From assembly GCA_003164035.1 (NCBI GenBank), contig PLRS01000045.1, forward strand, positions 1 to 64,000: a DNA stretch of 64,000 nucleotides, given 5' to 3'. Origin of the DNA: Bryobacterales bacterium. GTDB taxonomy: Bacteria > Acidobacteriota > Terriglobia > Bryobacterales > Bryobacteraceae. The notes below the pieces were generated by a model. It was given only the letters and a program-made list of their open reading frames with translations, did no database searches and was not told the origin of the DNA. This document shows, one piece after another, positions 12,690-49,975 of the stretch. How positions within the stretch are numbered: position 1 is the first letter of the stretch; each line of letters begins with the position of its first letter. A program made the position numbers and the translations under genes.

Positions 12690-13262
12690 TTAGCCGCCGA
12701 GCTCCCGGTAACGGAAGCAAGTGACCAGGTGGTCGTTCACCATGCCGGTGGCTTGCATGAAGGCGTAGCAGATGGTGGATCCGACGAAGGTGAATCCGCG
12801 GCGCGCCAGGTCTTTACTCATGGCATCGGATTCGGCGGTTCTGGCGGGCACTTCCTTGGGACTCTGCCAGCGGTTGCACTTGGGGCTGCCGCCGACGAAC
12901 TGCCAGACGTAGCGGTCGAAGCTGCCGAATTCCTTCCGCACGGCCAGAAATGCGCCGGCATTGCGGACGGCGCCGCGGATCTTGAGCCGGTTGCGAACGA
13001 TTCCGGGGTTGGCCAGGAGAAGCTGGATGCGGGCTTCGTCGTAGCGGGCGACCTTGCGGGGATCGAAGCGGTCGAAGGCGGCGCGATAGGCCTTGCGCTT
13101 ATTCAAAATGGTGGACCAGCTCAAGCCGGCCTGGGCGCCCTCCAGGATCAGGAACTCGAACAGCTTGCGGTCGTCGTGGAGAGGCACGCCCCATTCGCGG
13201 TCGTGATACTCCGTCATGGCGGCGCCCGACGACCAGGAGCAGCGGCTCGGTTCGGTAGTCAT
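12690..13262 (-). CDS. tag: DNA-3-methyladenine glycosylase I
   Basis: This 190-residue protein matches Tag, the cytoplasmic base-excision enzyme that removes 3-methyladenine. Key residues are present: Cys8 and His20 at the N-terminus with His and Cys in N-D-H-L-V-T-C for the zinc snap, the YHDREWG motif, Glu41 in LEGAQAGLSW, and GFTFVGSTICYAFMQATG. The length equals the family norm. Its ATG overlaps the stop of the upstream permease as ATGA, so it is translationally coupled to that transporter. This is an unusual pairing with no obvious functional link. Confidence 0.95.
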   Translation of the reverse strand: MTTEPSRCSWSSGAAMTEYHDREWGVPLHDDRKLFEFLILEGAQAGLSWSTILNKRKAYRAAFDRFDPRKVARYDEARIQLLLANPGIVRNRLKIRGAVRNAGAFLAVRKEFGSFDRYVWQFVGGSPKCNRWQSPKEVPARTAESDAMSKDLARRGFTFVGSTICYAFMQATGMVNDHLVTCFRYRELGG

Positions 13263-14680
13263 TTTTTCAAGCGATCTCCGAGGCCGGCTCGGACGATTCG
13301 GACGCTGCCGCGCATAAGCGCGAGATAGATTACACCGGCGACGCCGAAGCCGACGAACCAGGCGTAATCGTAGAGTAAGCGAAGGGCGGGCACGATTAGG
13401 CCGAGCAGAGCGACAACCACGCCGGCCGCGAGCGCGGCGATGGCGCGCCAGTTGACTCCGCTATCGTATTCATAGACGCCGTGGCGGCGATAAAGGTCGC
13501 CCACGCGGAGGCGCGACCGGCGCAGCAGGAAGTAGTCGGCGATCATGACGCCGGCGATGGGCCCGAGCAGGCCGGAATAGCCCACCAGCCAGCCGAAGAT
13601 GTAGGAGCTGAAATCGCTCACGAGTTTCCAGGGCATCATGAGCACGCCCACCACGCCGGTGATCAGGCCGCCGGTGCGGAAGGAAATCAGGCGCGGGTTG
13701 AGGTTGGAAAAATCGTTGGAGGGCGAAACCACGTTGGCCGCGACATTGGTATTCAAAGTCGCCACCAGCAGGGCGACGAGGGCGATGAAGGCGACCACGG
13801 GCTGGTGGAAGCGGCCCAGCAGCTCGACCGGGTCCCAGATGGGGTGGCCGAAGAGCACGGCGGACGCGGAGGTGACGGCCACGCCGATGAACGAGTAGAT
13901 GGTCATGGCGGCGGGCAGCCCGAGCGCCTGGCCCAGCGCTTGCGCCTTTTGCGACTTGGCGTAGCGGGTAAAATCGGGAATGTTGAGCGCCACGGTGGCC
14001 CAGAATCCGACCATGCCGGTGAGCGAGGGAATAAAGAAACGGAGAAACGCCGCACCCGTGTGGAACTTACTGGGGGCGCTCAGGACCGGGCCGAAACCGC
14101 CCGCCTTGCCGGTAATCCACCACAGCAGCAGCAGGCCGATGGCGAGCATGAACGGCGCGCCGACGCCTTCCAGGAATTTGATGGTTTCGATGCCGCGCAA
14201 AATCACCAGGATGTTCAAAGCCCAGAAAGCGAAAAAACAAATCCAGATTCCACCGGGAAAGCGGGCCGCCGCCGGCCATATGATCCGCAGCATGGAATAA
14301 ATGGCCTGGCCGCCGATCCAGGTTTGAATGCCGAACCATCCGCATGCCACCAAGGCGCGCAGCACGGCCGGAACGTTGGCGCCCCTCACGCCGAACGAAG
14401 CGCGCACGAACACTGGAAACGGAATGCCATACTTGGCCCCGGCGTGGGCGTTGAGCAGCATGGGAACAAGCACGATCAGGTTGCCGAGCAGGATCGTTGA
14501 AATCGCCTGCCGCCAGCTCATGCCGCCGGCGATGAGCCCGGATGCCAGCATGTAGGTCGGGATGCAGACCGACATGGCGACCCACAGCGAGGCGTAATTA
14601 TAGGTTCCCCAGGTTCGCCGCGAGAGCGGAATCGGAGCCAGGTCTTCGTTATAAAGAGAGGGGTCGCAGCCGCGAATCAC
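13259..14680 (-). CDS. NCS1 family permease (hydantoin/allantoin/pyrimidine type)
   Basis: This 473-residue polytopic protein opens with S-L-Y-N-E-D-L-A-P-I-P and W-G-T-Y-N-Y-A-S-L-W, hallmarks of the nucleobase-cation-symport-1 family. About 12 hydrophobic helices follow, with GWFGIQTWIGGQAIY in helix 3 and NIPDFTRYAKS before the middle loop. Homologues import hydantoins, allantoin, uracil or cytosine with Na+ or H+. The tag gene overlaps its end by four bases. An M20 amidohydrolase of the carbamoyl/ureido type at 27160-28428 could act on a substrate imported here, but the two genes are about 12 kb apart. The exact substrate cannot be read from sequence. Confidence 0.88.
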   Translation of the reverse strand: MIRGCDPSLYNEDLAPIPLSRRTWGTYNYASLWVAMSVCIPTYMLASGLIAGGMSWRQAISTILLGNLIVLVPMLLNAHAGAKYGIPFPVFVRASFGVRGANVPAVLRALVACGWFGIQTWIGGQAIYSMLRIIWPAAARFPGGIWICFFAFWALNILVILRGIETIKFLEGVGAPFMLAIGLLLLWWITGKAGGFGPVLSAPSKFHTGAAFLRFFIPSLTGMVGFWATVALNIPDFTRYAKSQKAQALGQALGLPAAMTIYSFIGVAVTSASAVLFGHPIWDPVELLGRFHQPVVAFIALVALLVATLNTNVAANVVSPSNDFSNLNPRLISFRTGGLITGVVGVLMMPWKLVSDFSSYIFGWLVGYSGLLGPIAGVMIADYFLLRRSRLRVGDLYRRHGVYEYDSGVNWRAIAALAAGVVVALLGLIVPALRLLYDYAWFVGFGVAGVIYLALMRGSVRIVRAGLGDRLKK

Positions 14681-14890
14681 CTAAAAGGCTCCTGGGGTTG
14701 TCTGCCGGCGCAAAGGCTCCGCCCTTCGTACTACCCTAACATGCAAGGCTCTCGTAGCGCCGGTGTTCTTCGGTCGCCGCTGCTCTTCAGAACGCTCCTC
14801 CAATCGCCGGGTACAGGCTGGCGGAAAAGACGGGCGGTCGCCCACCGGCACGTTCCGGTGATTTCTAGTACTGGCCAGTCAAATCCGATG

Positions 14891-14930
14891 GTGAAAGGAA
14901 TTGAATTCCCAATTTCACTTATGATATACA
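14891..14930 (+). promoter_or_regulatory. Promoter and overlapping palindromic operator of the three-gene cassette
   Basis: A sigma70-like promoter TTGAAT (14901-14906), 18 bases, TATACA (14925-14930) precedes the 320-residue gene. Its -35 box lies inside a two-layer palindrome: GGAATTGAATTCC (14897-14909) flanked by GTGAAA (14891-14896) and TTTCAC (14913-14918). Overlap of the palindrome with the -35 box suggests repression. The low-GC composition differs sharply from the surroundings. Confidence 0.55.
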
Positions 14931-14945
14931 AGCAAGCACTGAGGT

Positions 14946-15908
14946 ATGAATTGGAATTCAGTGCGCGGGATCCTTCAGGAAAGGCTTTGCTCCAGGACGG
15001 AGGGTGGTAAACGCCTCCCAAAGACCCGCCTTAAGCAGTGGTTGGACGAGCTTTACCCGCTGGATTATAGGATCGGCGAGCGTCTGGCCATCTGCCTTTG
15101 CATCGACTTGGTTGCCGGCGCCCTGACCCCCGATCAGGTGGTGCCCGTGATAAAAAGGTCGACGTCTCGCGCGCCTGGGGCCGAACACCCTCTCGAGGCG
15201 TTTGCAGCCGCGGTCGAAGATCTTGGATGCCTCTGCAATCATACGCATATTGCTCATTCCTCGTATGCCCGTGTGCTGAACCTGCGCACTTACAGCAGCT
15301 TCTATCACGAACCTTCCATTCCGGGCGCGTTTGGCGATGAGCTCGAATTAAGGCTGCTAAAGGAAAAGCTGGATGCCGGCCAGGAAGAGGGCGCTCCCAT
15401 GGATGCCATCGACCGAACCTGGAGCGGACGCAGACCGATTGTGTGGGTCACACAATGGACGTTCGTGAGCGAGCTTCGAAAGCGGCTGGGCGAAGAGACC
15501 GCCTCTGAACTGAACGACGTGATGGGACTGGGCTTCGAGGGTGAGCCCTGCAAGCGAACATTCTATGCCATCCGCTACCCGGCCGAGTTCCCGATTGTGT
15601 GCAGGCAGCCAACCACCTTCGATGCGGCGTGGAAGGGACTAACATATTACCTTTCTTATAAGAAGCACGACACCTGGGGTCTGACGCATGCCTGTTCGGG
15701 CCGGCCGTGCGTTTGTTCGCGAACGGCGCCTGCCGCTCCTGAGCGCGTGCATCCGGCGTTTGAGGCGCACTTGAAATTCTTCCGCTGTTTCCCGCTCGGT
15801 ACGGCGCAGCCCGCCTCCGACGACGTAGACGGTCTGCTCGCCGCGGCATATGAAAGGTTGGACGGAGCGCTACGCGCGGCGGTGACGGAGACCGGGCAGA
15901 CGGCCTGA
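14946..15908 (+). CDS. Unknown 320-residue protein, first gene of a novel cassette
   Basis: I do not recognise this protein. It has no signal peptide or membrane segment. The first 60 residues contain a helical segment (KTRLKQWLDELYPLDYRIGE), then a mixed region with FYHEPSIPGAFGDELELRLL and RRPIVWVTQWTFVSELRKRL. A cysteine-containing part (HACSGRPCVC) follows, with a helical tail. The start is uncertain: GAGG lies only one base before the ATG at 14946, and the predicted transcript would begin about 10 bases upstream. The next gene starts 28 bases after the stop on the same strand, so the three genes to 19326 form an operon. Flanking genes are on the opposite strand. Confidence 0.7.
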   Translation: MNWNSVRGILQERLCSRTEGGKRLPKTRLKQWLDELYPLDYRIGERLAICLCIDLVAGALTPDQVVPVIKRSTSRAPGAEHPLEAFAAAVEDLGCLCNHTHIAHSSYARVLNLRTYSSFYHEPSIPGAFGDELELRLLKEKLDAGQEEGAPMDAIDRTWSGRRPIVWVTQWTFVSELRKRLGEETASELNDVMGLGFEGEPCKRTFYAIRYPAEFPIVCRQPTTFDAAWKGLTYYLSYKKHDTWGLTHACSGRPCVCSRTAPAAPERVHPAFEAHLKFFRCFPLGTAQPASDDVDGLLAAAYERLDGALRAAVTETGQTA

Positions 15909-15936
15909 ACGCAAGCCTGGAATACCCGAGGCAGCC

Positions 15937-17040
15937 ATGAGACCGGAGGTTCTGAAAAAGTATTCCGAATTCTCAGCGGAGGATTGGCGCGAGTGGATCG
16001 TGGGCGCGATCCGCCGCCAGCCGGTTTCTCCCCCTCTGTTTCTTGCCAGGGACGAGGATGTCCAACATGGGATCCAGGATGCCTATGCTTCTCTGCCCTC
16101 GGACAAGATGCGCGATGCGCTGAGATCCGGTCTGACTCAGGCGCTCACGAGCACTCCAGTTCTTCCCCACGACGAACAGACCCGCATCCAATTCGCGTAT
16201 TTGTTTCGAATCGCGGCGATATTGAAGCCGCCCGACGCGCGCAACTTTCTTCGCGGGCTGCTGAAGACCGAGGTATTCTCCGGCGTCGAAGCGGCGGGAG
16301 CCGATCTGCACTGCCTGCTGGTGGGCGTCTGCGCCAAGTACGGTATCGATTCGCAGTTCATCCGGGATCTGCACGCCGCGATCCCGCGCATTGGCGGCTG
16401 GCAGTATCCGCTGGCATGCTTCCGCTCGGTGGCGCTCGGCAGCGCCGACGGAGAGGAGGCCTGCCGGTTCCTCGATTATCTGGTGCCCGCGCTGGCGGAT
16501 GGCGCGATCGCGGCGAAGTTGGAAGACGCCATGGAGGTCTGTATGCGGATGCACGGGCTGGAGTCGATCTCCAGGTGGTATCAAACCCACGAGAACTCCA
16601 CCATTCGGGAGCATCCCAGGCAACTGGCGCTATTGGAGGCGCGGCTGAACCAACTCTTAGCCAAAGCGCGGACGCGCGATCTCTTGCATGCGCTGGCTTT
16701 GCCGAAAGTGCTTTTCCAGAAGTACGGACCGGAGGCGATGCTCGAGTTTGTGACCGGGCACCGCCGCGAGCGCGACGCGTGCGTGGAGACACTCGGGAAA
16801 CTCCATGAGCTCGGTCTGAACTGGAAACTAAACGATCCGCATTCGCTGGTGCTGTTTGAGCGCCAGTACCGGCCCGACGCTCCGATCACTTTGAGCCTGA
16901 ACGGCCACGATATCCCGCTCGATCTGGAAGTTCACGAGCAAGAGTACTGGATATTCAATGAAGCCATGCGGTATACGGAGATGACCCCGGCGACTCTGAC
17001 ACTCATGCGACAAAACTACGGAATGACGTACATTGTTTAG
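15937..17040 (+). CDS. Unknown 367-residue helical protein, second gene of the cassette
   Basis: This protein is not recognised. The sequence is predicted mostly helical, without a signal peptide or membrane span. It starts MRPEVLKKYSEFSAEDWREW, contains regularly spaced Leu/Ala helices through about residue 300, and ends with a beta-like segment ITLSLNGHDIPLDLEVHEQE followed by Y-W-I-F-N-E-A-M-R-Y. The start has a purine-rich GAGGCAG box seven bases upstream. It is separated by 28 bases from the preceding gene and 9 from the following one. An adaptor or scaffold role beside the nuclease-like third protein is a guess from context. Confidence 0.7.
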   Translation: MRPEVLKKYSEFSAEDWREWIVGAIRRQPVSPPLFLARDEDVQHGIQDAYASLPSDKMRDALRSGLTQALTSTPVLPHDEQTRIQFAYLFRIAAILKPPDARNFLRGLLKTEVFSGVEAAGADLHCLLVGVCAKYGIDSQFIRDLHAAIPRIGGWQYPLACFRSVALGSADGEEACRFLDYLVPALADGAIAAKLEDAMEVCMRMHGLESISRWYQTHENSTIREHPRQLALLEARLNQLLAKARTRDLLHALALPKVLFQKYGPEAMLEFVTGHRRERDACVETLGKLHELGLNWKLNDPHSLVLFERQYRPDAPITLSLNGHDIPLDLEVHEQEYWIFNEAMRYTEMTPATLTLMRQNYGMTYIV

Positions 17041-17049
17041 AAGGCGCCA

Positions 17050-19326
17050 ATGCCAGGCCCCAGAATTGCAGCCGCGTTTCGCGTAACGCCGGAACAGGTC
17101 GACTCGCTGACACGCGACCTGCGCATGATCGAGCAAGGAGCGGTCGTGCTCGCCTGCTTCGATCCGTACGAAATCATCAACTACTGTTTTCCCGTCACGC
17201 CGGGCGTGCAGTACGTAGACGCGACGATCGACGAGATCGCCGACGATCAGGCGGCGTTGGAGTTCGGGCTGTTCAGCGAAGATTTCTTGCCGGTCCTCAT
17301 CGACGAGTACGCGGCGGAGTTGCGGCGGTACCTAAGCCATCTGACGTTTGAGGCGAATCGCGCGTACGACAAGGCGGCGCTGGTCCGGGAACTGGAAATG
17401 ACCGCGGGCGTAGCGGAAGGCGATCCGGAAAAGGCGCGCCAATTCGTGGAACTGGAAGAGGTGAAGGCGGATTTTAACGTCTCGCTGGCCGTGACTCTTG
17501 GGAAGATCTCCATTGGCGTGCAACGCCTCCGGGAAGTGGTGCAGAGATGCAACCGGCGGACGGACTATGACGCGAGGATTCGGGAAGCGCTGGCGGGCTA
17601 TAAGCCCGGCCCGGTATCGCAGACGATCTACGACGCGCTGGGAGCCGAAATTCAGCGCCAGGAACCCGATCCGACCAGCCGCCGGCGAAAGCTGCGCAAC
17701 GCGCTGGTGGATGCAACCGCGATCGAGCGGATTCTGCACGCGAACCGCGCCCTGGCGGCGGACAGTACAAGCCCGCGGCTGATCCTGCTGTACGTATCGT
17801 CCGCCGGCAGAAACTGGACGATTTTCTCGATTCCGGATGTGGAAGCGGCGCAGCCAATCATCGACGGAAAACCCTACCCGATCTGGAGAACAAGAGAACA
17901 GTTGTTTGTGGCATTGCTGCACAAGGGCACCGAGAACGAGCCGGTTTCCCACTGGATCGGCCGGCTGAGCAGTTGGAAAGACCAGTACTCCCGGATACGG
18001 TACTTGCACGGCAAGATTGGTCAACAACCGGGGGAGGAATGCATCCCTTCGGATTGCCTGCAGGTCGGTGGGACACCTGCCGACTCGTGCAAATGGCTGG
18101 AACTTTGCCGGGCTCTGGACTCGGACGTTCAGATCAAAGCCAAGCGGGCGGAGATCAAGAACCTCGGCCTGATCGCGGCAATCGCGACGTACACGCGCGT
18201 GCTGAAAAGCCTGCAGCAGCTCCAACAGGACCCGGCGGCGCGGGTGAAGGCGGTAGTGGCGGCTCTGGTGTCGGCTCCGATGCGCGATCTGGCGATGGAA
18301 AAAATGTTCGTGGAGAATTCGATGCTGCTGCTCCAGGACGACCTGCGCCTGGCAGTTGCCGACCGTAAACTCGAGACGGGGGGCGAAAGCGAGGGGGCGG
18401 CAAGCGACGGCGTCACCAACGTGGTGCAATCGCTGCCCCGGCGTCCCAGGTTGATCACTCCCGAATACAGGGATCTGGCCGACCGCTTGATCCAGTATTA
18501 CGACCAGCCGCGCGTCGCCATGATGGACGCTGCCAGGTTCGTGGAGAGTGTCAACCCCGAGTTCGCACTGCTGGCCTCGCGCGTACCGGAGGGAAACGGC
18601 GAATTGGAGCTGCTGCGGTGTCTTCTGCACCTTGCGTATCCGCTTCGTTCCGGAGACGCCCGCGTGGTGAACTCCACCGATGAGAATTGCAGAAAGTATC
18701 CGGACCAGCAGGCGGAGTTCCTCTACGTAGGGTGCTGGGCGGCGCGGCGGATGAAGCGATACGCGGAATCGATCCTGTTCGCCGACCGGGGCGTTGCGTT
18801 GAATCGGCAGGACCCCCGCTTCTATCACGGCCGTGCACTAAGCATCTACTGTTGGATCGCCTCGGGTACCGCCGGATGCTCCAAGGTGATGCAGGACGCC
18901 ATTGACGACACAGTCCGCGCCATCGAGTTGTTCGAGCTCGATCCCGAAGCCGGTCGCGACCGGGAGATGTTGAGCGCCTGCTACAACAATGCGGCGTATT
19001 TTTCTCTTGTACCCGATTTGTCGGCCCCCGACGGTCCAAGCAAAGCTTCGGAGTTCTTCGACAAGCTCCTGCAGGTGCTGCCGCGTTCCCAATGGACGCC
19101 GAAATATCCGGAGTACTACCATACCGAATCGCTGTTGCTGTACAGCCGGTACTTGGTCCAGAAGCAGGGGGGAGCTAAAGAAGGGACGGCGAGGCCTCAC
19201 CTGGTCCGCGCTATGGGACAGTTGCGGACGGCGGTTCAGCTCGACCCCTGTCAGGAGTACAAGGAACTGTACGACACAATGCAACGGGCGTTGGGGGCTC
19301 CGGCGAAGGCCAGGAGCACTCCCTGA
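17050..19326 (+). CDS. Unknown 758-residue protein with PIN-like N-terminus and TPR-like C-terminus
   Basis: The N-terminal 260 residues show the spacing of an enlarged PIN ribonuclease fold: V-V-L-A-C-F-D-P-Y-E with Asp38, LPVLIDEYAAEL with Glu86, and NALVDATAIERI with Asp221. The last is followed by a hydrophobic strand LILLYVSSAG where PIN domains usually carry T-S-D; the final acidic residue is therefore missing or displaced. The middle (about 360-430) is helical or coiled-coil-like. Residues about 570-740 resemble degenerate TPR helices with CYNNAAYF and A-V-Q-L-D-P. No signal peptide is seen. It is the last gene of the three-gene operon, 9 bases after the second. PIN assignment is an inference from motif order, not a database match. 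Confidence 0.68.
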   Translation: MPGPRIAAAFRVTPEQVDSLTRDLRMIEQGAVVLACFDPYEIINYCFPVTPGVQYVDATIDEIADDQAALEFGLFSEDFLPVLIDEYAAELRRYLSHLTFEANRAYDKAALVRELEMTAGVAEGDPEKARQFVELEEVKADFNVSLAVTLGKISIGVQRLREVVQRCNRRTDYDARIREALAGYKPGPVSQTIYDALGAEIQRQEPDPTSRRRKLRNALVDATAIERILHANRALAADSTSPRLILLYVSSAGRNWTIFSIPDVEAAQPIIDGKPYPIWRTREQLFVALLHKGTENEPVSHWIGRLSSWKDQYSRIRYLHGKIGQQPGEECIPSDCLQVGGTPADSCKWLELCRALDSDVQIKAKRAEIKNLGLIAAIATYTRVLKSLQQLQQDPAARVKAVVAALVSAPMRDLAMEKMFVENSMLLLQDDLRLAVADRKLETGGESEGAASDGVTNVVQSLPRRPRLITPEYRDLADRLIQYYDQPRVAMMDAARFVESVNPEFALLASRVPEGNGELELLRCLLHLAYPLRSGDARVVNSTDENCRKYPDQQAEFLYVGCWAARRMKRYAESILFADRGVALNRQDPRFYHGRALSIYCWIASGTAGCSKVMQDAIDDTVRAIELFELDPEAGRDREMLSACYNNAAYFSLVPDLSAPDGPSKASEFFDKLLQVLPRSQWTPKYPEYYHTESLLLYSRYLVQKQGGAKEGTARPHLVRAMGQLRTAVQLDPCQEYKELYDTMQRALGAPAKARSTP

Positions 19327-19411
19327 AAACAGCGGCCTCCCGGACCGGCGCGGGCAGCGCCAATTTCGGCATCCGCACATCCAGCACGCGAAAGGCGAAT
19401 ATTCCCACCCC

Positions 19412-20347
19412 TCACTCAAAGCACTGTTCGATCGATCTCAGATACTGGCGATTGCGCAGCGCACTCTCTCGCGGCGTGCCCATGCCGGGGAGAATATCCT
19501 GCTCCACCAGCACATAGCCCGAATAGCGTTTCGATTTAAGCCAGGCGAGCACGGCGGGGAAGTCCACCGAGCCATGGCCCAGCTCGCAGAAAACGCCGCG
19601 GCCGAGGGCGGTGAAATAATCCCAACCCTCGGCGCGGGCGCGCTCGGCCGCCTCGGGCGCGCAATCCTTGAAATGCACGTACCAGACGCGGTCGCCGAAA
19701 CGCGCAAGGCCCGCCATGGCATCGCCGTCACCCGCGCCGTAGACGTAGTGGCCGGTGTCGAAGACCAGGCCGACGTGGCGCGGGTCGGTCAGTTCCAGAA
19801 AGCGGGCAATTTCGTCGGGCGTCTCCACGTAGCCGCCGCAATGGTGATGAAAAACGGTGCGCAAGCCGGTTTCGTCCGCCACGGCCTTGGCGATGTGGTC
19901 GGCGCCGGCGGCGAAAGTACGCCAGTCGTCGGCGGTCAAGCCCATGGAAGGGGCGATACGGCCGGCGTTGTGTGTGCGCTCCGGAACGGTACCATTTTCA
20001 TCGGCGAGCACCAGGAACGGCGCCGGGCTGGTGGCGACGGCGGCCAGCAGACGCGCCGTGCGGATGGCGGCTGCGCAACCGGCGGCGTGAGCCGATTGGT
20101 TTTTGAGCGCCACGGGAACGAAGGCGCCCAGCATGGCCAGGCCGCGCCGCGACAGTTCCGCGCCCAGCGCCGAAGGGTCGGTGGGCATGTAGCCCCAATC
20201 GCCCAACTCGGTCCCGGTATAACCGGTAGCGGCCAGTTCGTCGAGCATGCGGTCGAACGGAATAGTCTCTCCGGGTACCCCGTCGAATTCGAGCGATCCC
20301 CAGGAGCACGGGGCATTACCTACGCGTAACGCGGACATGGTTTTCAT
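19412..20347 (-). CDS. iolE: IolE-like 2-keto-myo-inositol dehydratase (TIM-barrel isomerase superfamily)
   Basis: This 311-residue protein belongs to the AP-endonuclease-2/xylose-isomerase-like TIM barrels. It opens V-G-N-A-P-C-S-W-G and continues [11 protein letters not shown]. Metal-binding residues typical of IolE lie in [18 protein letters not shown] and WYVHFKD. IolE dehydrates 2-keto-myo-inositol to the trihydroxycyclohexanedione that IolD opens, and iolD is the next gene upstream on the same strand. IolH or an epimerase is the alternative. It is the last gene of the minus-strand iol run and is separated from iolD by 138 bases holding two hairpins. No clear ribosome binding site precedes the ATG. 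Confidence 0.8.
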
Positions 20348-31323: not shown

Positions 31324-31400
31324 TGGGGTGGGCGGTGGGATTCGAACCCACGACATCCAGAACCACAATCTGGCGCACTACCAACTGTGCTACGCCCACC
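31324..31400 (-). tRNA. tRNA-His (GTG)
   Basis: Read on minus, the 77-base gene starts GGTGGGCGTAGCACAGTTGG and has an eight-pair acceptor with the extra 5' G characteristic of tRNA-His. The anticodon loop is TTGTGGT with anticodon GTG. The T-arm reads GGGTTCGAATCCC, and an encoded CCA follows. Confidence 0.96.
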
Positions 31401-43469: not shown

Positions 43470-46400
43470 GTGTCTGCACGAAGGATTCTGCTATGGCTGG
43501 TTGCGGTGAGCGCGCTGGTTGCCTGCGCCGCGGCACAGCAGGTGTCGAACGGAACGGTGAAGGGAGTCCTGATGGACGATTCGGGTGCGGTGATTCCGGC
43601 CGTAAACGTGACTCTATCCGGCAACGGGGTTTCCAGGACTGGACAAACGCAGACGGACGGCAGCTACTCGTTTGCGGGCCTGGCGCCGGGGCAATATAAC
43701 GTCTCGGTAAGCGTCGCCGGTTTTGCGCCCTTCTCCAAAGCGGTCGCGGTGGCGGGCGGCAGCGCCGTCCAGGTTCCTATCCAACTTTCCATTCGGGCGC
43801 AAAAGCAGGAAGTGACGGTACAAGGCGAAACCGCCGCGCAGGTGAGCGTCGAACCGGATAACAACGCTACGGCCCTGGTGGTGAAGGGCTCCGACCTGGA
43901 AGCGCTGCCGGACGACCCGGACGATCTATCCGATGCGCTGCAGGCCCTGGCCGGGCCAGGCGCCGGGCCCAATGGCGGCCAGATCTATATCGATGGTTTC
44001 AGCGGCGGCCAGTTGCCGCCCAAAGAATCCATCCGCGAGATCCGGATCAACCAGAATCCTTTTTCCGCCGAGTACGACCGGCTCGGTTTCGGCCGCATCG
44101 AAATTCTGACCAAGCCCGGCACCGACAAACTGCGCGGCGCGCTGTCGTTGATGGATAGCGACGGGGTGTTCAATTCCCGCAACCCCTTTTCCAACATCAA
44201 GCCGGATTTCTCCAATCGCATGGAAGCGGCTTACCTGGGCGGCTCGCTCAGCAAGAAAGCGTCTTTCTTCGTGGATTTCAACCGCCGCGACGTCGAGAAC
44301 AACTCGATCGTGGTGGCTCAATATTTCAACGCTGCCACGCTGACCCAGTCGGGCATCAATACCGCGGTTCTGGCGCCTTCCACTTTCATGATTATTGCGC
44401 CGCGCCTCGATTACCAACTCACCACCAACAACACGCTTACGGTGCGCGTGGACGAACGGCTGAATTCGGCGGATAACAGCGGCGTGGGCGGCACCAGGCT
44501 GCCGGCGCCGTACTCCAGCCTGGGCTATAACAACACCGGCAACGGGCAGAACATCATGGTGACCGAGAGCGCGATACTGGGTCCCAAGGTGGTCAATGAG
44601 ACGCGCTTCCAGTTCTTCCGCAACTGGTCGGCGAGCGCCGGCAACCTGATTCCGCAGATCGACGTGGCCGGCTCCTTCGTGGCCGGGGGCAACGGCCTGG
44701 GCAACACCCATGACCTCAGCCGCCACCTCGAACTGCAGAACATCACTTCGGTGTCGCATGGCGTCCACACGCTCCGTTTCGGCGCGCGCGTGCGGCGCGA
44801 CGGCGATCAGAGCAATCAGCCCAACGGATTCAACGGCACGTTCAACTTCCTGGGAGGGGTGGAGCCGGAACTTAATTCGGCCAACCAGATTGTCTACGAT
44901 TCCAGCGGCAACCCGGTCACCGAGACGCTCACCTCGCTCCAGCAGTACGAGCGGAACGTGCTGCTCACCCAAGCCGGATTCAGCCAAACCGCGATTCAGG
45001 CGCTTGGCGGCGGTCCTTCGATGTTCACCATTCAGGCCGGCCAATCGTATATCGGCCGCTACCGCTACGACGGGTCTCCTTTTTTCCAGGACGATTGGAG
45101 GGTGCGGCCCAACCTCACGCTCAGTCTGGGCCTGCGCTACGAGGTGCAAACCCTGGTAAGCGATCATCGCGACTGGGCGCCGCGCCTCGGTTTTGCCTGG
45201 GCGCCCGGCAGCGCGCGCAACGGCAAACAGAAGACCGTGATCCGCGGCGGCTTCGGATTCTTTTACGACCGCATCGGGACTTCCCTGTTTGAAACCGCCG
45301 CCCTCGACAACGGCGTCAACCAATTGCAGTATACGGTCTATAATCCGACTTTTTACCCCAATATTCCGGCACTTTCCTCGCTGAGCGCGGGGCAGAACAC
45401 GAGATACATCGTCGATCCCAAGCTGCGCGCCGATTACAGCATGCAGGCGGCTCTCGGGGTGGAACGCCAGTTGCCGCGCAACACCACCGTGTCGCTGACG
45501 TATTCCTTCAATCGCTCCGTACACCTGGCGCAGACCGTGCCCATCAACACGCCGCTGCCCGGCAGCTTCGATCCGTCTCAGTCTCTCAGCGCAACCAACG
45601 GCGTTTTTCCGTACGGCTACTCCGCGGGCACGATTTTCGAAGACGAATCCGGCGGTTACATGCGGCAGCATTTGTTGATGGCCAATTTCAATACGCGTTT
45701 CAGCAGCCGCGTGTCGCTGTTCGGAAATTATACCCTGGGCTACGCCGACGACATTCCCTCCACGCCGACCGATCCTTACGACTTCCGTCTGGATTGGGGA
45801 ACCTCCAGTTTTAATCGCCGCCAGAATTTCATGTTGATGGGCAACGTAGTGGGACCCAAGAATATTCGCCTGGCTCCGTTCGTGGCTTTGCGTTCCGGTC
45901 AGCCTTACGACGTTCTGGCGGGTGAAGATCTGTACGGAGACACGGAGACGAACGCGCGGGCGGCCTTCGTTTCGCGCGCCACCTGCTCCAGCGTGACGGC
46001 TTCCGGCGATAACGTCTGTTCGCCCTACGGCACGTTCACGAGCAGCTACGCGGTCTCGAGCACCGGCAGCGTGGTACCGCGCAACTATCTGACCATGCCG
46101 GGACTGATATCCATCAACCTGCGCGTCTATCGGACCTGGGGATTCGGCGGGAACAAGAAGGTCAAGGCGAGCACGCAGGCGGAAAGCGGGCCTCCGGGCA
46201 GCCCCGGCGTGATGGCAATGGCTGGCCGAGGCGGTCCCGGCGGTGGCGGCCCGCCTCCCGGCGGCGGTCCGGGCGGACCAGGCGGCGGACCAGGCGGTCC
46301 CGGTGGACCCATGGGCGGCGGCTCCAGCGAGCATCCCTACAACGTGACCCTCTCGCTGAACGTCGAAAACCTGTTCAACCATTTCAACCCGTCCGGCTAC

Positions 46401-46541
46401 CAGGGCGTGATCACCAGCCCGTACTTTTTGGAAGCGACCTCGGTGAATACGGGCTTCGGCGGCGGCGGTCCCGGCGGCGGGCAAAGCGGCAGCGTGGCCA
46501 ACAACCGACGCATCCAGTTGGGTCTGAGATTCACGTTTTAG
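43470..46541 (+). CDS. TonB-dependent receptor-like outer membrane protein, first tandem paralogue
   Basis: The protein has 1023 residues starting at GTG with GGAGG just upstream. A signal peptide ends in A-A-A-Q-Q. Residues about 25-110 are a carboxypeptidase-regulatory-like (CarboxypepD_reg) domain with GTVKGVLMDDSGAVIPAVNV and G-S-Y-S-F-A-G-L-A-P-G-Q-Y. A plug-like region follows, with FSGGQLPPKESIREIRINQN and L-T-K-P-G-T-D-K-L-R-G. The rest is a beta-barrel ending in R-R-I-Q-L-G-L-R-F-T-F. A Gly/Pro-rich run at about 905-945 breaks the barrel. Such proteins import glycans or other large substrates in Acidobacteria. A close paralogue follows at 46952. Confidence 0.9.
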   Translation: MSARRILLWLVAVSALVACAAAQQVSNGTVKGVLMDDSGAVIPAVNVTLSGNGVSRTGQTQTDGSYSFAGLAPGQYNVSVSVAGFAPFSKAVAVAGGSAVQVPIQLSIRAQKQEVTVQGETAAQVSVEPDNNATALVVKGSDLEALPDDPDDLSDALQALAGPGAGPNGGQIYIDGFSGGQLPPKESIREIRINQNPFSAEYDRLGFGRIEILTKPGTDKLRGALSLMDSDGVFNSRNPFSNIKPDFSNRMEAAYLGGSLSKKASFFVDFNRRDVENNSIVVAQYFNAATLTQSGINTAVLAPSTFMIIAPRLDYQLTTNNTLTVRVDERLNSADNSGVGGTRLPAPYSSLGYNNTGNGQNIMVTESAILGPKVVNETRFQFFRNWSASAGNLIPQIDVAGSFVAGGNGLGNTHDLSRHLELQNITSVSHGVHTLRFGARVRRDGDQSNQPNGFNGTFNFLGGVEPELNSANQIVYDSSGNPVTETLTSLQQYERNVLLTQAGFSQTAIQALGGGPSMFTIQAGQSYIGRYRYDGSPFFQDDWRVRPNLTLSLGLRYEVQTLVSDHRDWAPRLGFAWAPGSARNGKQKTVIRGGFGFFYDRIGTSLFETAALDNGVNQLQYTVYNPTFYPNIPALSSLSAGQNTRYIVDPKLRADYSMQAALGVERQLPRNTTVSLTYSFNRSVHLAQTVPINTPLPGSFDPSQSLSATNGVFPYGYSAGTIFEDESGGYMRQHLLMANFNTRFSSRVSLFGNYTLGYADDIPSTPTDPYDFRLDWGTSSFNRRQNFMLMGNVVGPKNIRLAPFVALRSGQPYDVLAGEDLYGDTETNARAAFVSRATCSSVTASGDNVCSPYGTFTSSYAVSSTGSVVPRNYLTMPGLISINLRVYRTWGFGGNKKVKASTQAESGPPGSPGVMAMAGRGGPGGGGPPPGGGPGGPGGGPGGPGGPMGGGSSEHPYNVTLSLNVENLFNHFNPSGYQGVITSPYFLEATSVNTGFGGGGPGGGQSGSVANNRRIQLGLRFTF

Positions 46542-46951: not shown

Positions 46952-49900
46952 GTGTTCATACGTAGGATTGCGCTTTGGCTGCTTCTGGCGGCCGCGCTGG
47001 CCGGCGGCGCCGCGGCGCAGCAGGTGTCGACCGGAACGGTGAAGGGCGTCCTGATGGACGATTCAGGCGCGGTGATTCCGGCCGCAAGCGTGTCTCTATC
47101 GGGTAACGGGATTTCCAGAACCGCACAATCGCAGGCGGACGGCACCTACTCGTTCGCGGGTCTGGCGCCGGGGCAATATAATGTGTCGGTCAACTTCACC
47201 GGTTTTGCGCCCTTCTCCAAAATGGTCGCGGTGACGGCCGGCAGCGCCGTGCAATTGCCGCTCCAGCTTACCATCAAGGCCGAAACGCAGGAAGTGATGG
47301 TGCAAGCCGAGGGGGGTGCGCAGATCAGCGTGGAACCGGATAACAACGCCACCGCGCTGGTGGTGAAATCCACCGACCTGGAAGCCCTGCCGGACGATCC
47401 CGACGACCTCGCCGACGCACTGCAGGCGCTGGCCGGGCCAGGCGCCGGACCCAATGGCGGCACGATCTACATCGATGGCTTCAGCGGCGGCCAGTTGCCG
47501 CCCAAGGAATCCATCCGCGAGATTCGCATCAACCAGAACCCTTTTTCCGCCGAGTATAGCTGGCTCGGTTTCGGCGGCATCCAGATTCTGACCAAGCCGG
47601 GTACCGACAAGCTGCGGGGCGCGGTGTCGTTGATGGATAGCGACGGGGTTTTCAATTCCCGCAACCCGTTTTCCAATATCAAGCCGGACTTCTCGAACCG
47701 CATGGAGGCCGCGAACCTGGCTGGCTCTCCCAGCAAGAAGGCCTCCTTCTTCGTGGATTTCAATCGGCGCGACGTGCAGAATAACTCGATCGTGGTGGCT
47801 CAATATTTCAACGCCGCCACGCTGACCCAGTCCAATATCAATACTTCGGTGTTGACGCCTTCCACTTTCATGATCGTGGCGCCGCGCGTCGATTACCAGC
47901 TCACGACTAATAACACGCTGACGGTACGCGTGGAAGAACGGGTGAATTCGGCGGATAACGCCGGGGTGGGCGCGACCAGGCTGCCGGCGCCTTACTCCAA
48001 CCTGGGTTATAACAACACCAGCGACGGGCAGAACGTCATGGTGACGGAGAGCGCGGTGCTAAGCCCCAAGGTGGTCAACGAGACCCGCTTCCAGTTCTAT
48101 CGCAGTTGGTCGGCCAACGCCGGCAACCTGATTCCCCAGATCAACGTGGCCGGTTCGTTCGTGGCCGGCGGCAACGGCTTGGGCGACAACCACGATCAGT
48201 ACCGCCATTTCGAGATCCAGAACAATACCTCGGTGTCGCGCGGCTCCCATACCGTCCGCTTCGGCGTGAAGGCGCGGCGCGATGCCGACCAGAGCAATCA
48301 GCCCAACGGATTCAACGGCACGTTCAGCTTCCTGGGGGGCGTGGAGCCGGAACTGGATTCGGCCAACCAGATCGTCACCGATTCCAGCGGCAATCCGGTC
48401 ACCGAAACGCTCACATCGCTACAGCAGTACGAGCGCACCGCGCTGCTCACTCAGGCCGGATTTAGCGAAGCGCAGATTCAGGCGCTGGGCGGCGGCCCTT
48501 CGCAGTTCCGCATCCAGGCCGGCCAATCGTATATCAGCGCCCACCGCTACGACGCAGCTCCGTTTGTGCAGGACGATTGGAAGCTGCTGCCGAACTTCAC
48601 CCTCAGCCTCGGCCTGCGCTACGAGGTGCAAACCCTGGTGAGCGACCATCGCGACTGGGCGCCGCGGCTGGGTTTTGCCTGGTCGCCGGGCAGCGCGCGC
48701 AACGGCGGACAGAAGACCGTGATTCGCGGCGGCTTTGGGTTCTTTTACGACCGCGTCTGGTATTCCATGTTTGAAAACGCCGCCCTCGACAACGGCGTCA
48801 ACCAGTTGCAGTACGTGGTCTATAATCCGACTTTTTACCCCAATATCCCACCGCTTTCGTCGCTGAGCATGGGACAGAACACGACCTACGTGGTCGATCC
48901 CAAGCTGCGCGCCGATTACAGCATGCAGGGGGCTCTCGGGGTGGAACGCCAGTTGCCGCGCAACACCACGGTGGCGCTGACGTATTCGTTCAATCGCGCC
49001 GTCCACCTGGCACAGACCGTGCCCATCAACACCCCTCTGCCCGGGACTTTCGATCCATCTCAGTCTCTCAGCGCAACCAACGGCGTTTTCCCGTACGGCT
49101 ACCAGGCGGGCACGATTTTCGAGTACGAATCCGGCGGCTACATGCGCCAGCAGTTGCTGATGGCCAATTTCAACACGCGTTTCAGCAGCCGCGTATCGCT
49201 GTTCGGCAATTACACGCTGGGCTACGCTCACGACATACCCGGGACGCCGACCGATCCCTACGATTTTCGTCTCGATTACGGGACGTCCGGTTTTAATCGC
49301 CGCCACAATTTCATGGTGATGGGCAACGTGCTGCTGCCTTGGGCCGTTCACCTGGCTCCGTTCGTGGCCCTGGCTTCCGGGCAGCCTTACGACGTTCTGG
49401 CGGGCCAGGACATGTTTGGCGACACGCTGGCCAACGCTCGCGCCGCGTTCGTCTCCCACACGGCCTGCTCCAGCCTGGTGTATTCCGGCGACGACGTCTG
49501 CTCGCCCTACGGCACCTTCACTACCGATTACCAAGTCACCAGCACCGGCAGCGTGGTCCCGCGCAACTACCTGACCATGCCCGGGCTGGTGTCCATCAAT
49601 ATGCGCGTCTATCGCACCTGGGGATTTGGCGCCATCAAAAACGCCCGGCCGAATCAAGCGAACGGTATGCCGGGGCCCCCTTCCGGCATGATGGCACTTG
49701 GCGGCCGCGGCGGTCCGCCTCCTGGAGGTCCGGGGGGAGGCGGCTTCATGGGTAGCACCACCGAGCACCCTTACAACCTGACCCTTTCGTTGAACGTCGA
49801 AAACGTCTTCAACCATTTCAACCCGTCCGGGTACCAGGGCGTCGTCACCAGCCCGTACTTTTTGCAAGCGACCTCGGTGAATACCGGCTTCGGCGGCGGC

Positions 49901-49975
49901 GGTCCCGGCGGCGGGCAAAGCGGCAACGTGGCCAACAACCGCCGCATCCAGTTGGGTCTGCGATTCACGTTTTAG
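46952..49975 (+). CDS. TonB-dependent receptor-like outer membrane protein, second tandem paralogue
   Basis: This 1007-residue protein starts at GTG after GGGGGA and has a signal peptide ending A-A-A-Q-Q. Domain order is the same as in the gene upstream: CarboxypepD_reg domain, plug-like region with FSGGQLPPKESIREIRINQN, a barrel of about 750 residues and the terminal strand L-G-L-R-F-T-F. It is near identical to the 43470 protein over long stretches. Differences cluster in short barrel segments, and its Gly/Pro run before the last strands is shorter. The pair is a tandem duplication; the divergent loops suggest related but different ligands. Confidence 0.9.
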   Translation: MFIRRIALWLLLAAALAGGAAAQQVSTGTVKGVLMDDSGAVIPAASVSLSGNGISRTAQSQADGTYSFAGLAPGQYNVSVNFTGFAPFSKMVAVTAGSAVQLPLQLTIKAETQEVMVQAEGGAQISVEPDNNATALVVKSTDLEALPDDPDDLADALQALAGPGAGPNGGTIYIDGFSGGQLPPKESIREIRINQNPFSAEYSWLGFGGIQILTKPGTDKLRGAVSLMDSDGVFNSRNPFSNIKPDFSNRMEAANLAGSPSKKASFFVDFNRRDVQNNSIVVAQYFNAATLTQSNINTSVLTPSTFMIVAPRVDYQLTTNNTLTVRVEERVNSADNAGVGATRLPAPYSNLGYNNTSDGQNVMVTESAVLSPKVVNETRFQFYRSWSANAGNLIPQINVAGSFVAGGNGLGDNHDQYRHFEIQNNTSVSRGSHTVRFGVKARRDADQSNQPNGFNGTFSFLGGVEPELDSANQIVTDSSGNPVTETLTSLQQYERTALLTQAGFSEAQIQALGGGPSQFRIQAGQSYISAHRYDAAPFVQDDWKLLPNFTLSLGLRYEVQTLVSDHRDWAPRLGFAWSPGSARNGGQKTVIRGGFGFFYDRVWYSMFENAALDNGVNQLQYVVYNPTFYPNIPPLSSLSMGQNTTYVVDPKLRADYSMQGALGVERQLPRNTTVALTYSFNRAVHLAQTVPINTPLPGTFDPSQSLSATNGVFPYGYQAGTIFEYESGGYMRQQLLMANFNTRFSSRVSLFGNYTLGYAHDIPGTPTDPYDFRLDYGTSGFNRRHNFMVMGNVLLPWAVHLAPFVALASGQPYDVLAGQDMFGDTLANARAAFVSHTACSSLVYSGDDVCSPYGTFTTDYQVTSTGSVVPRNYLTMPGLVSINMRVYRTWGFGAIKNARPNQANGMPGPPSGMMALGGRGGPPPGGPGGGGFMGSTTEHPYNLTLSLNVENVFNHFNPSGYQGVVTSPYFLQATSVNTGFGGGGPGGGQSGNVANNRRIQLGLRFTF

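Follow-up and report, generated by a model that had tools for sequence, protein, structure and literature searches.

The question raised by this locus is what a compact run of three genes with no credible match among known families does for its host, and in particular whether its large third product is an RNA-cleaving PIN-type effector assisted by two accessory proteins, as a first-pass annotation of the window (the whole stretch of 64,000 nucleotides analysed) had supposed. The genes are referred to below as g1, g2, and g3 and their products as proteins 1, 2, and 3.

Organization and genomic context of the locus

The three co-directional plus-strand genes, separated by gaps of 28 and then 9 bases and enclosed by minus-strand genes, lie exactly as first described in both coordinates and strands (Table 1), and all three frames are open across 4.4 kb. 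Pfam assigned eight of the nine neighbouring proteins to metabolic, transport, repair, or regulatory families and one to no family. The third-position G+C of g1, g2, and g3 (0.69, 0.74, and 0.77) falls below the 0.81 and 0.78 of the flanking genes; since other open reading frames of the window reach the same values (0.73-0.77), composition is a weak sign for the trio. Rfam models matched nothing in 14400-19700, and the single tRNA of the window lies at 31324. Elsewhere in the window, tandem plus-strand genes at 43470-46541 and 46952-49975 encode proteins of ~1000 aa each with very similar N-termini and are probably paralogues.

Table 1. Features of the three-gene locus and its immediate flanks, in window positions.
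Feature	Position	Strand	Description
Permease gene, cytosine/purine-type (PF02133)	13259..14680	-	Flank, outside the system; Pfam
Two-layer inverted repeat, 28 bases	14891..14918		Upstream of g1; possible operator, not above chance
g1 (gene 1)	14946..15908	+	320 aa; orphan; residues 1-69 with a relative in G206
g2 (gene 2)	15937..17040	+	367 aa; orphan; residues 133-241 related to the gene adjoining the g3 relative in G103
g3 (gene 3)	17050..19326	+	758 aa; D38, E90, D221 (N-terminal region) and C331, C336, C347, C353 conserved in the G103 relative; TPR-like C-terminal part
TIM-barrel gene (PF01261)	19412..20347	-	Flank, outside the system; TPP-enzyme gene next, KduI/IolB gene further on; Pfam

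A regulated operon had been proposed from a low-GC promoter overlapping the two-layer palindrome upstream of g1. The palindrome and the A+T-rich stretch (65% A+T at bases 14881-14960) are present; no plus-strand promoter emerged from a sigma-70 scan. The two layers of the palindrome have no common centre, and a single-centre test of 14681-14960 gave its top score (8/14) at another place, a value equalled by 496 of 500 shuffles. In a two-layer test, whose definition was written after the element had been seen, the palindrome was the sole element of its type in the window against 0.35 expected per 64 kb (40 simulated sequences), and 27 of 200 shuffles folded as well as its RNA (z -1.19). By these measures the palindrome does not rise above chance and lends no support beyond it to the proposed regulation. 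A perfect 12-base palindrome of different sequence occupies a roughly similar position (L012 7930-7941) upstream of a g1 remnant in another genome of the class (G206, see below).

Searches for known families and mobile carriers

No credible match was obtained for any of the three window proteins in Pfam, PADLOC, NCBIfam, PHROGs (hmmscan), or PDB sequences, which bears out the initial impression that none was recognisable. The PADLOC and NCBIfam scans covered these three proteins only, PADLOC-DB 2.0.0 returning 0 families for them at E<=10, and neither a nuclease nor an ATPase domain was detected in the trio. Several weak candidates were set aside: a YscX match to g2 (E 0.0022; 18.3 bits against a cut-off of 30), sorting nexin and SIR2-like chain matches to g3 (E 0.024 and 0.028), and a HEPN-like RxxxxH motif in protein 2, rejected as missing from its relative in a second genome of the same order (G103). 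A mobile carrier was not seen, since tblastn of g1, g2, and g3 against plasmids and phages, tblastn of the G103 relative of g3 against plasmids, and scans of viral contigs with g1 and the g2 and g3 alignments were all without a match. The trio was also not described in the literature searched, as judged by titles and abstract openings.

Distribution and co-occurrence of the three genes

The trio is rare. A full-length relative of g3 (~31% identity, a strong divergence) was found in G103 only, that is in 2 of 151 genomes with the own genome included. When 257 genomes of the order were searched with alignments of g3 and of g2, each search gave the same two genomes, namely the own genome and G103, whose sequences are themselves members of both profiles. 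Among 399 genomes of the class, g3 was detected in three including the own, one of them (G206) with a C-terminal fragment only, and g1 as a single query matched the own genome only. Among 396 genomes of the phylum, the g3 search gave nine rows at E<=0.05, the eight besides the own genome (E 0.0026-0.049) being short stretches that were not counted as relatives. The profiles were built from two or three sequences, which very distant relatives can escape.

The first-pass annotation had tied its proposal to homologues of the three genes co-occurring, and two of the three were found in company in each of two genomes: relatives of g2 and g3 in G103, and pieces of g1 and g3 in G206. The G103 contig corresponds to JAQBUE010000078.1 of Acidobacteria bacterium isolate casp150-mb.136 (13,246 locus bases identical in a genome-collection scan). 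The gene directly upstream of its g3 relative resembles g2 over 109 residues (BLASTP E 1e-6), with a local score of 83 compared to a mean of 33.6 (sd 4.7, maximum 53) in 500 shuffles; the likeness is confined to residues 133-241 of g2. The contig ends just upstream of this gene, before the place of g1, and a g1 search of the whole G103 genome at E<=10 gave nothing. The neighbours of the pair look metabolic by eye.

In G206, a genome of the same class, the start of g1 and the end of g3 survive on two contigs. The last part of g3 lies at the end of contig C83, and near the end of contig C68 there is a weak match to residues 2-69 of g1 (E 0.029), with a local score of 77 compared to a mean of 28.4 (sd 4.4, maximum 48) in 300 shuffles. 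The end of C68 enters a repeated element, to which G206 has 18 near-full matches, counting C68 itself, and one short match. At the end of C83 its 12 terminal bases recur in inverted orientation, with 17 of the first 24 identical. This is the picture expected if the two contig ends were opposite ends of a single kind of insertion sequence. The bases beside them form no shared target duplication by eye, and the two ends demonstrate neither one clean insertion nor the adjacency of C68 and C83. The insertion-sequence-like repeat occupies L012 8211-8348, and 12 of its 18 near-full matches stand at contig ends, by the lengths seen. At 2-2.5 kb ahead of the g1 remnant, past a sigma factor gene and a zf-HC2 zinc-finger gene, there are HicA, HicB-like, and HNH genes.

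The apparent disruption by an insertion sequence in G206 would suit a decaying selfish or phage-derived block devoid of present function; we regard this as very improbable given the three frames open in the window, the residues conserved in the g3 relative, and the phage and viral searches without a match. The flanking TIM-barrel gene provided a further view of the site: the stretches around seven of its orthologues (69-75% identity) held no match to the permease or the trio, all seven being adjoined by a dehydrogenase-like match instead, and an empty site could not be shown from these loci.

Architecture of protein 3 and the PIN question

TPR-like helices had been noted in protein 3, and a TPR-like C-terminal part is weakly to moderately supported. 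An AlphaFold model from three sequences had a mean pLDDT of 49.1, its best part beyond residue 470, and in VIA-align residues 469-758 matched TPR structures. The best of these was 4hot_A (Z 10.8, rmsd 2.9, 130 aligned), with values that chance alone can produce for helical models. The whole protein has no Pfam family, and TPR_2 matched in pieces of it below the cut-off (E 0.058).

The same annotation had taken Asp38, Glu86, and Asp221 for PIN-like acidic positions. All three residues are present in protein 3; the G103 relative shares D38 and D221, and E86 is not conserved. Also kept, among others, are D61, D65, D66, E90, YVSSA at 248-252, and four cysteines (C331, C336, C347, and C353) that form a cluster among the 6 of 14 cysteines conserved. 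Over positions 1-300, identity to G103 extends to 19 of the 45 acidic residues, compared to 95 of the 282 aligned residues of all kinds, and conservation of D38, E90, and D221 is therefore not specific.

The proposed PIN ribonuclease core found no support in profile comparisons. Pfam scans up to E 10 placed no PIN family in protein 3, PF01850 included. A reference set of PIN domains from 13 genomes was drawn from 30 loci listed among many more matches, of which 28 sequences were used (one locus lacked an open strand and one had been read on the wrong strand). In hhalign, the joined core of the two-sequence protein 3 alignment scored 8.6 against these 28, below the mean of 60 column-shuffled controls (10.6, maximum 16.9), while all 12 positive controls, PIN pairs against the rest, were clear (42-153). 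On this ground, protein 3 cannot be recognised as belonging to the PIN family. An hhalign run with 29 PIN sequences and the uncut protein 3 alignment likewise gave no match. Cropping to residues 1-300 yielded a model no better than the whole (mean pLDDT 46.2), for which Foldseek returned nothing at E<=0.001; the absence of a PIN structure among the 50 Foldseek matches listed for this poor model shows nothing. Neither AlphaFold model is good enough to decide for or against a PIN fold.

Protein 3 may have a PIN-like fold that has diverged strongly. The original proposal, in the form of a divergent ribonuclease of PIN type that contains a long helical insertion and is under the control of proteins 1 and 2, would draw on D38, E90, and D221 being kept and on an order of predicted elements that is compatible by eye. 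The unspecific acidic pattern, the profile and hhalign results, and the low confidence of both models count against it, and we consider it improbable. The own genome (G000) carries 36 PF01850 PIN matches at E<=1e-8 on many contigs, one of them on the contig of the window (C17:144091-144450), and a PIN_8 (PF18476) search of this genome gave one match, elsewhere and below the cut-off.

Proposed role of the operon

The explanation that best accommodates these results, advanced tentatively, is a rare accessory operon whose three genes keep company, have probably moved horizontally, and encode products acting together, most likely used as a conflict module. Movement of an accessory module between lineages is suggested because the compactness, the shared company, the rarity, and the divergence fit it. 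Protein 3 would be the core and main actor: its N-terminal region would be an effector that depends on metal, zinc may be held by the four cysteines, and the TPR-like part would bind either of the partner proteins or a target. Proteins 1 and 2 may sense or restrain protein 3 in an anti-phage or similar conflict module, and it is in this sense that we infer a defence role for the trio.

Short of an even chance, the conflict reading draws on the adjacent g2 and g3 relatives, their restriction to the same 2 of 257 genomes, the remnants in G206, the cysteine cluster, and the HicA, HicB-like, and HNH genes near the g1 remnant. It is opposed by the absence of PADLOC families, nuclease or ATPase domains, and a mobile carrier, by the metabolic neighbours, and by there being one full-length g3 relative. 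TPR proteins have many roles, and the main rival, which we judge somewhat unlikely, is an operon particular to the lineage that serves regulation or stress and plays no part in conflict, the TPR-like protein 3 being a scaffold for proteins 1 and 2. The metabolic neighbours and the missing PADLOC families suit this rival, whereas detection in no more than 2 of the 257 genomes searched in the order is unlike a core regulator and the strong divergence of g3 also argues against it.

A more ambitious form of the conflict reading, which we rate as unlikely, is that the trio constitutes a new three-component conflict system of Acidobacteriota, made of three families lacking known relatives, in which protein 3 would unite TPR repeats with a four-cysteine site and an effector domain of a new kind. 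If the trio is a conflict system, it was missed entirely by the libraries searched, its three families lying outside known domains and being recognisable by synteny alone; if it is not, the locus still shows cleanly how the genes of a rare orphan operon keep company, and it offers testable residues.

Comparison with known systems

VapBC toxin-antitoxin systems are small operons with a PIN nuclease, VapC being a short single PIN domain. The trio resembles them as a small operon for which the first annotation had proposed a PIN nuclease, and differs in the 758 aa of protein 3, unmatched by PF01850, compared to the short VapC. DS-5 is described as a two-gene defence system with a recognised PIN domain whose PIN effector needs a partner protein (PMC13092281). 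Compared by description, DS-5 differs from the trio in having two genes and a recognised PIN domain, and is alike in pairing a PIN effector, as proposed for protein 3, with a partner. The TPR/GreA-B-C/PIN conflict proteins are rapidly evolving, carry the PIN domain C-terminally after GreA/B-C, and are encoded by genes that mostly stand alone (PMC8195603). Protein 3 departs from this arrangement in its N-terminal candidate region, in that Pfam detected no GreA/B-C domain in it, and in its two partner genes. It resembles these proteins as a single, rapidly evolving product with TPR-like repeats for which a PIN domain has been proposed.
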